This document shows, in pieces, positions 44,452-44,689 of a stretch of DNA of 64,000 nucleotides (within the stretch, counting starts at the first letter, position 1; every line of letters begins with the position of its first letter). The translations under genes were made by a program, and so were the position numbers. This DNA comes from Paenibacillus terricola. GTDB taxonomy: Bacteria; Bacillota; Bacilli; Paenibacillales; Paenibacillaceae. The DNA lies in NCBI RefSeq assembly GCF_014779765.1, contig NZ_JACXZA010000002.1, positions 682,001-746,000 on the forward strand, given 5' to 3'. The notes below the pieces were generated by a model, which ran no database searches, was not told where the DNA came from, and worked only from the letters and a program-made list of their open reading frames with translations.

Positions 44452-44485
44452 TCTACAACTCTCCTAACCTTTAAAATGTTTACGT

Positions 44486-44514
44486 TTGACAGGAATCCAA
44501 TGACGTGGTACAAT
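44486..44514 (+). promoter_or_regulatory. Consensus promoter facing the rph promoter
   Basis: TTGACA (44486-44491), 17-base spacer, TACAAT (44509-44514) on the plus strand: a near-perfect SigA promoter. It points away from rph and straight into the rph promoter. Confidence 0.72.
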
Positions 44515-44567
44515 AAAATTATAAAATGGTCTGTCTTTACGAATTTTTTATTTGTACACGTAATCCG

Positions 44568-44596
44568 ATTATATCACTTCGTCTTTTTATATGCAA
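44568..44596 (-). promoter_or_regulatory. SigA promoter of rph
   Basis: On the minus strand TTGCAT (44591-44596), 17-base spacer, TATAAT (44568-44573). Predicted start near 44561, giving a leader of about 110 bases. The promoter faces the plus-strand promoter at 44486-44514. Confidence 0.7.
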
Positions 44597-44602
44597 AATT
44601 GT

Positions 44603-44633
44603 AGCCCCTGCCTTGTTGGCAAGGGCTTTTTTT
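44603..44633 (+). terminator. Terminator-like palindrome upstream of the rph -35
   Basis: AGCCCCTGCC-ttgtt-GGCAAGGGCT (one mismatch) followed by seven T on the plus strand. It can end the plus-strand RNA. Its position just upstream of the rph -35 also makes it comparable with the rifamycin-associated element, a palindrome found before rifamycin-inactivation genes; I cannot verify a match to that consensus. Confidence 0.8.
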
Positions 44634-44689
44634 GTTTTCGCTGCTGCTCACGCAACTGCCTTCTTTTGTATTAGGAATAGAATTGATTG

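Follow-up and report, generated by a model that had tools for sequence, protein, structure and literature searches.

A probable rifampicin-responsive dual-promoter switch upstream of rph in Paenibacillus terricola, and a similar promoter pair before a second primary sigma factor gene

The rph gene of Paenibacillus terricola raises the question of how a rifamycin-inactivating enzyme could be turned on by the drug when a second promoter, facing that of the gene, lies in the same short upstream region. The gene is encoded on the minus strand (41839..44451) of a 64,000-nucleotide stretch of the genome, called the window here. Its 870-residue product contains PPDK_N and PEP-utilizers domains and matches the NCBIfam model NF041857 (RIF_Ptrans_rph) with 1465.1 bits (cut-off 999), and an older model named phosphoenolpyruvate synthase (PRK06241) gives 1562 (cut-off 976), above the NF041857 score. 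Judged by its sequence, the product is a full rifamycin-inactivating phosphotransferase, and among the best 80 of 576 named loci it is closest to Paenibacillus rph, at 74% or less. A gap of 238 bp separates the gene from a neighbouring minus-strand frame that ends at 44690. We propose that this upstream region is a rifampicin-responsive dual-promoter switch in which RNA polymerase itself would serve as the sensor, a reading based on the sequence and on analogy with a published system, to which we assign a probability of roughly 0.88.

Both promoters lie inside the 238-bp gap. The sense promoter, TTGCAT-17-TATAAT with an extended -10 element, runs from 44596 to 44568 on the minus strand; its -35 hexamer (44591..44596) corresponds to the majority TTGCAt of 72 loci compared below, and its -10 hexamer (44568..44573), with the extension TGA, was recognized in the sequence, in a promoter scan, and in the same 72-locus comparison. 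Transcription of rph is expected to start near 44561, taken as the seventh base after the -10 element, which itself ends 116 bp before the rph ATG, and an AGGAG Shine-Dalgarno sequence is found at 44461..44465 on the same strand. Facing it on the plus strand is the antisense promoter, TTGACA-17-TACAAT with a TG extension (44486..44514). Its -35 hexamer (44486..44491) has a majority of 97-100% at each of the six positions across the 72 loci, all with 17-bp spacers, its -10 hexamer (44509..44514) was recognized in the same three ways as that of the sense promoter, and the antisense RNA would start near 44521 by the same spacing rule. An earlier note, made from the sequence of the window, had described these two promoters, 53 bases apart between their -10 elements, in an upstream region of 238 bases and had called the plus-strand one the stronger. 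The length of the region was exact to the base, the coordinates of both promoters were right, and the distance between the -10 hexamers was re-read as 53 bp; the ranking agrees with promoter scores computed from sequence (16.7 for the antisense and 14.1 for the sense promoter).

Polymerases starting at the plus-strand promoter would reach an intrinsic terminator at 44603..44633, supported by the sequence, by a promoter and terminator scan, and by a predicted fold, in which the hairpin AGCCC-C-TGCC-TTGTT-GGCA-A-GGGCT is followed by seven T on the plus strand. The distance from promoter to terminator predicts an antisense RNA of about 113 nt (44521..44633, plus strand), as the earlier note had suggested from the palindrome and its T tract. 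The terminator hairpin appears as a stem in the predicted fold of this RNA, which is moderately more stable than its shuffles (z -1.92; 8 of 200 shuffles as stable). With start sites placed by spacing, the RNA would be antisense to roughly the first 41 nt of the rph transcript, an overlap that speaks for repression of rph by pairing of the antisense RNA with the leader, with transcriptional interference as a secondary effect. We regard such pairing as a very unlikely main cause: the predicted RNA does not reach the Shine-Dalgarno sequence at 44461-44465, conservation between the promoters is lowest in ten bases at the centre of the overlap (mean majority 0.50 in the 72 loci, with 0.37 further upstream), and in the accessible text on B. 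subtilis helD promoter changes account for the regulation (PMC12802891).

A small plus-strand protein was also considered and rejected. The candidate frame (ATG at 44500, stop at 44604, with an earlier TTG start as well) begins upstream of the expected start site, and a reading frame shared by the loci is unlikely because the distance between the -10 elements varies from 49 to 57 bases, with every value in between represented among the 94 loci compared below. For the longest closed frame per predicted antisense RNA, the median is 12 codons and the maximum 36, with at least 15 codons in 41 of 94. A search of the 64-kb window with Rfam at the gathering threshold returned only an FMN riboswitch (109.5 bits; 18462-18606, minus strand), away from the rph promoter pair, and a plasmid collection held no match to the rph promoter element.

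Promoter-like sites as such are not rare in this DNA, since a simple scan of 43000-46000 found eight where 6.5 were expected; the plus-strand antisense promoter was the best of the eight, with 11 of 12. We also scored pairs of facing promoters with 46-62 bp between their -10 elements in the 350 bp upstream of a gene, using approximate weights. The window pair scored 30.9, against a mean of 7.9 and a maximum of 20.9 in 1000 dinucleotide shuffles. The pattern TATAAT-N35..65-ATTGTA-N15..19-TGTCAA has a single match in the 6.78-Mb genome, at the rph site, and the reversed pattern used as a control has none. The convergent pair before the window rph is beyond chance.

Conservation was assessed in 62 rph loci from genomes of the family, of which 58 were usable (no frame was found in L027, L033, and L069, and L073 had no start), together with the best 80 of 576 named loci. 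These sets overlap in part through shared contigs, and related sequences are not independent; removal of near-copies (at least 85% alike, ungapped, over the last 200 nt) reduced the 102 loci that reached the pair score of at least 22 given below to 94. At a common threshold (sense promoter at least 11, antisense promoter at least 13, 20-62 bp between -10 elements), 50 of 58 and 48 of 80 upstream regions of rph have the convergent pair, which is seen in none of 150 control regions from named loci and in none of 1370 shuffles of rph regions (0 of 2860 over all three sets). A pair score of at least 22 was reached by 52 of 58 and 50 of 80 rph loci, by 0 of 150 controls, and by 1/1140, 4/1580, and 2/2560 shuffles. 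The earlier note had staked its reading on conservation of the plus-strand promoter in orthologous rph loci, and it is kept in most of them, not in all: 8 of 58 and 32 of 80 lack the pair at the common threshold. Among the named loci, the element occurs in Paenibacillus, Brevibacillus, Cohnella, and the B. subtilis group (B. tequilensis, B. swezeyi, and B. sonorensis).

The geometry of the pair is narrowly kept. The -10 elements are 53-55 bp apart in 78 of 94 loci, corresponding to 41-43 bp between expected start sites, and the sense spacer is 17 bp in 92 of 94; the antisense spacer is 17 bp in 73, 18 bp in 21, and 19 bp in none of the 94. The sense -10 element has a majority of 88-100% in the 72 loci with 17-bp spacers, and the antisense promoter outscores the sense promoter by sequence in 92 of 94 loci. 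An antisense-strand terminator is found behind the sense -35 element in 81 of 94 loci (29 of 1880 shuffles), giving a median predicted RNA length of 119 in these 81. In 79 of them the stem is of one GAACCTG type. The stem in the window (AGCCCCTGCC/GGCAAGGGCT) differs from this type and stands in the same place, and a helD gene of the same genome, described below, also has a stem of another type, so a hairpin with its T tract persists even where its sequence has changed.

The loci without the pair, 32 of the 80 named ones at the common threshold, bear on the view that the plus-strand promoter and terminator are remnants or belong to an unrelated small RNA, with rph expressed constitutively or controlled in some other way. 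This is highly improbable in our judgement, as the antisense promoter is near-invariant and the terminator keeps its place even though the rph proteins of the compared loci are mostly about 66-75% identical to that of the window. The palindrome has also been read differently. Because it adjoins a rifamycin-resistance gene, the earlier note had connected it with the rifamycin-associated element (RAE), which would be bound by a rifamycin-responsive factor, and the conservation of the GAACCTG-type stem leaves room for a sequence-specific role there. The RAE of actinobacterial rgt, rox, and helR likewise governs the drug response of rifamycin-resistance genes; it is a palindrome of 19 bp situated in the 5' leader, roughly 20 bp past the P1 start and over the P2 -35 element (PMC10719064). 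In contrast, the palindrome in the window, compared with the RAE by position only, lies upstream of the sense promoter and its -35 element, ends in seven T on the antisense strand, and has a stem unlike the GAACCTG type. The connection with the RAE was thus not borne out, the chance that a rifamycin-responsive factor binds here is close to nil, and the palindrome is better read as the terminator of the antisense RNA.

By the parts that can be read from its sequence, the window element is a member of the kind of RIF-responsive dual-promoter system published for B. subtilis helD and pps, the latter being rph (PMC12802891, Nucleic Acids Res. 2026, gkaf1407). In the accessible text of that paper, where Pps is described as a predicted RPH homologue, the sense promoter of helD is held down by interference from a stronger antisense promoter; at sub-inhibitory rifampicin the gene is released, and the level of an antisense RNA about 90 nt long drops. 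The effects of swapped, replaced, or mutated promoters account for how helD is regulated, and its induction disappears with a rifampicin-resistant rpoB or when the region is shortened by 17 bp. The system so described also loses its induction once the antisense promoter is disabled, and escape from its sense promoter is slow. The evidence for interference, induction, and dependence on the antisense promoter is detailed for helD and comes from a reporter and RT-qPCR for pps, while displacement of the arrested polymerase is put forward there as the authors' proposal. The window shares with this system the gene, the sense promoter facing a stronger antisense promoter, and a short antisense RNA with a terminator (about 113 nt predicted here); start sites are 39 bp apart in helD, close to the 41-43 bp between expected sites in most loci here.

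Carried over to P. terricola, the proposed switch would work as follows. Without drug, polymerases from the stronger plus-strand promoter would run through the rph promoter as far as the terminator close behind it, and rph would rarely be transcribed. At sub-inhibitory rifampicin, drug-bound polymerase would be arrested most often at the busier antisense promoter and interference would end, and a drug-free polymerase could then leave the rph promoter, displace the arrested one, and transcribe rph, with RNA polymerase itself as the sensor. The earlier note had supposed that the stronger opposing promoter silences rph and that rifampicin shifts the balance without a dedicated sensor; this finds support, being the mechanism demonstrated experimentally for helD and pps/rph in B. 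subtilis (PMC12802891). We infer the same regulation in P. terricola by analogy, and what we observe is the parts, their conservation, and their geometry. The same paper names convergent-promoter interference in phage 186 and Shigella icsA, where a strong promoter also suppresses a weak opposing one; the difference is that no antibiotic input is described for these in the text available. The conservation lends evolutionary support, apart from experiments, to the sensing of a drug through its own target with no sensor protein. It also shows where selection acts on the switch: on the antisense promoter and the spacing, on the terminator, and on the bases with which the antisense RNA begins.

The pair in the window lies within 300 bp upstream of the gene and does not overlap another annotated region, as in the accessible description of the published scan. 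The geometry used in that scan (spacers of 16-20 bp, promoters 45-100 bp apart) covers the 17, 17, and 53 bp found here, a comparison of geometry alone (PMC12802891). The window has a convergent antisense promoter that is stronger by sequence score, and its sequence predicts a short antisense RNA with a proximal terminator. The B. subtilis search motif, TTGN3-N17,18-[AT]6-N45,55-[AT]6-N18,19-N3CAA, has no match in the window gap and matches 13 of 94 loci; as given in the available text, it is a search aid and not a requirement of the mechanism, and the FIMO criteria would allow the window geometry. One difference lies in the antisense spacer, which is 17 bp in the window and 19 bp in B. subtilis, where it was tentatively linked to release of the arrested polymerase (PMC12802891). 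The 17-bp spacer in the window weakens this tentative suggestion of a long spacer, the antisense spacer of B. tequilensis rph also reads 17 bp in our promoter scan, and the spacer counts above bear on the published model in that 19-bp antisense spacers are not general.

A further conserved feature lies directly behind the antisense promoter. The window has a -10-like TAAAAT at about +2..+7 of the antisense transcript (44522..44527, plus strand), and 90 of 94 loci have TANNNT in this place, compared with 97 of 1880 shuffles; by this measure, the start of the antisense RNA equals a promoter in its degree of conservation. In phage lambda, -10-like sequences near this place cause sigma-dependent pausing, and the element before rph may hold polymerase near the antisense promoter. 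The conserved element goes beyond what the accessible text of the B. subtilis study mentions (PMC12802891).

The pair is not limited to rph. A scan of the family with TATAAT-N46..60-ANNNTANCA-N13..16-TGTCAA gave matches in 200 of 394 genomes, and the reversed control in 12 among the matches listed. Twenty matched places, mostly picked for not being at an already listed rph and so not an unbiased sample, were assigned to genes from the translated frame and lay before rph in 16 cases, before helD in one, before a sigma factor gene in two, and before a lipoprotein gene (L131) in one. The genome of the window contains three HelD-like genes above the family cut-off, one of which (L077) has the convergent pair, with a score of 26.9 (at most 19.9 in 200 shuffles), 61 bp between the -10 elements, and an antisense terminator whose stem, AATCGGCC/GGCCGATT, is unlike the GAACCTG type; the other two are without a convergent pair. 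At L045, rph follows immediately on a HelD gene (568.6 bits) and lacks its own convergent pair, an arrangement that fits control of rph through helD. L044 resembles it by eye. Another helD (L129; 1163.4 bits), which like two sigma factor loci of the scan was checked by HMM, has its own convergent pair (score 32.1) and terminator and is among the scan matches beginning TATAATTAGCAATGG. Two other matches stand before a short frame beside a divergent gene (L097, L110).

At least 18 rph genes of Bacillaceae among the named loci, counted by eye, share a different conserved arrangement, with two extended -10 promoters that face away from each other and a conserved ATAGACT-TTTATTC core between them (upstream of rph at L142, L150, L161, L164, L168, L175-L177, L179, L183, L186, L190, L193, L195, L203, L204, L211, and L217). 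An expression written for this arrangement matched 0 of 36. A related form is seen at L194, L198, L220, L060, L065, and L075. Given these loci and those without the pair, rph is, on sequence evidence, not always under a convergent-promoter switch.

Following the convergent matches before a sigma factor gene, we came upon sigA2, a gene for a second primary sigma factor that is distinct from the housekeeping sigA; the RpoD model PRK09210 matches two examples with 661.3 and 593.1 bits (cut-off 572). When 63 more genomes of two genera were searched at the protein level, 46 of them had two strong matches, and with G044 and G017 this gave 48 upstream stretches. Forty-three were usable, as L292-L295 and L298 had no sigma motif and were dropped before the count; ten further sigA2 loci were found by promoter pattern and stand outside the 43. 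Sigma factor genes with an altered finger behind convergent promoters, mostly with an antisense terminator, are listed at L130, L132, L221-L224, L237-L243, and 43 of L253-L300, in two genera. All 43 usable regions across the two related genera have a sense promoter with an extended -10 element opposed by an antisense promoter with a near-consensus TTGACA, under thresholds and a wider 20-62 bp range that were set after seeing these regions. Such a pair was seen in none of the 13 housekeeping sigA regions, 150 controls, and 430 shuffles; with the score made for rph and a range of 46-62 bp, only 10 of the 43 pass. The G017 copy fails a stricter promoter expression and passes the common threshold. 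An antisense terminator is present in 38 of 43 (18 of 430 shuffles), and the -10-like element at +2..+7, found in only one of the 43 pairs, is not a feature of sigA2. The -10 elements are 40-49 bp apart in 38 of the 43 and 26-29 bp in the other five, with a mode of 43 compared with 54 in rph. At this closer spacing one polymerase may keep out the other, so that regulation could be different, and the loss of B. subtilis helD induction on shortening by 17 bp, in the available text of PMC12802891, is relevant here.

The sigA2 proteins differ from the housekeeping ones at particular places. Eleven sigA2 copies and 13 housekeeping copies share no residue at eight columns past residue 100, four of which lie in the sigma finger and its hinge. 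The tip of the finger is DDSH in 13 of 13 housekeeping copies and NDSN, NDSR, NDSK, or SDSH in all 31 sigA2 copies read, so that the first acidic residue is lost in each of the 31 (12, and 19 of 20 more, with L316 giving no reading); the H-to-N/R and L-to-P changes are not found in all of the later copies. According to the accessible part of a 2026 preprint, the finger is acidic in most primary sigma factors, and the C-4 group of rifamycin B, once bound, faces it (PMC13404664). Tentatively, and with the odds somewhat against it, we suggest that the convergent-promoter switch could be a general gauge of RNA polymerase initiation capacity with a wider regulon, in which sigA2 may be a drug- or stress-induced spare sigma factor that alters initiation under inhibition and the -10-like element may hold polymerase. 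If this is true, a spare sigma factor with a changed finger behind such a switch would be a candidate for a novel means of withstanding polymerase inhibitors. Among the papers inspected in a literature search, none dealt with a convergent pair before sigA2, and in PMC12802891 the term "sigma factor" occurs 0 times in the main text, with sigA2 perhaps standing in its supplementary tables; judged on this and on the sequences, the sigA2 part looks new. The genome of the window has one match of this kind, a housekeeping sigma gene (78%), and the next by score is 32% identical.

The window also encodes an ArsR-type regulator with a rhodanese-like second half (39631-40329, plus strand) and, further upstream of rph, an APH-type phosphotransferase (PF01636, 60.8 bits; 45815-46756, minus strand). 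In Paenibacillus sp. NAIST15-1 (L200:1-5086), rph lies directly downstream of genes for a Cfr-family methyltransferase and an ABC-F ribosomal-protection-like protein, forming a resistance gene cluster.
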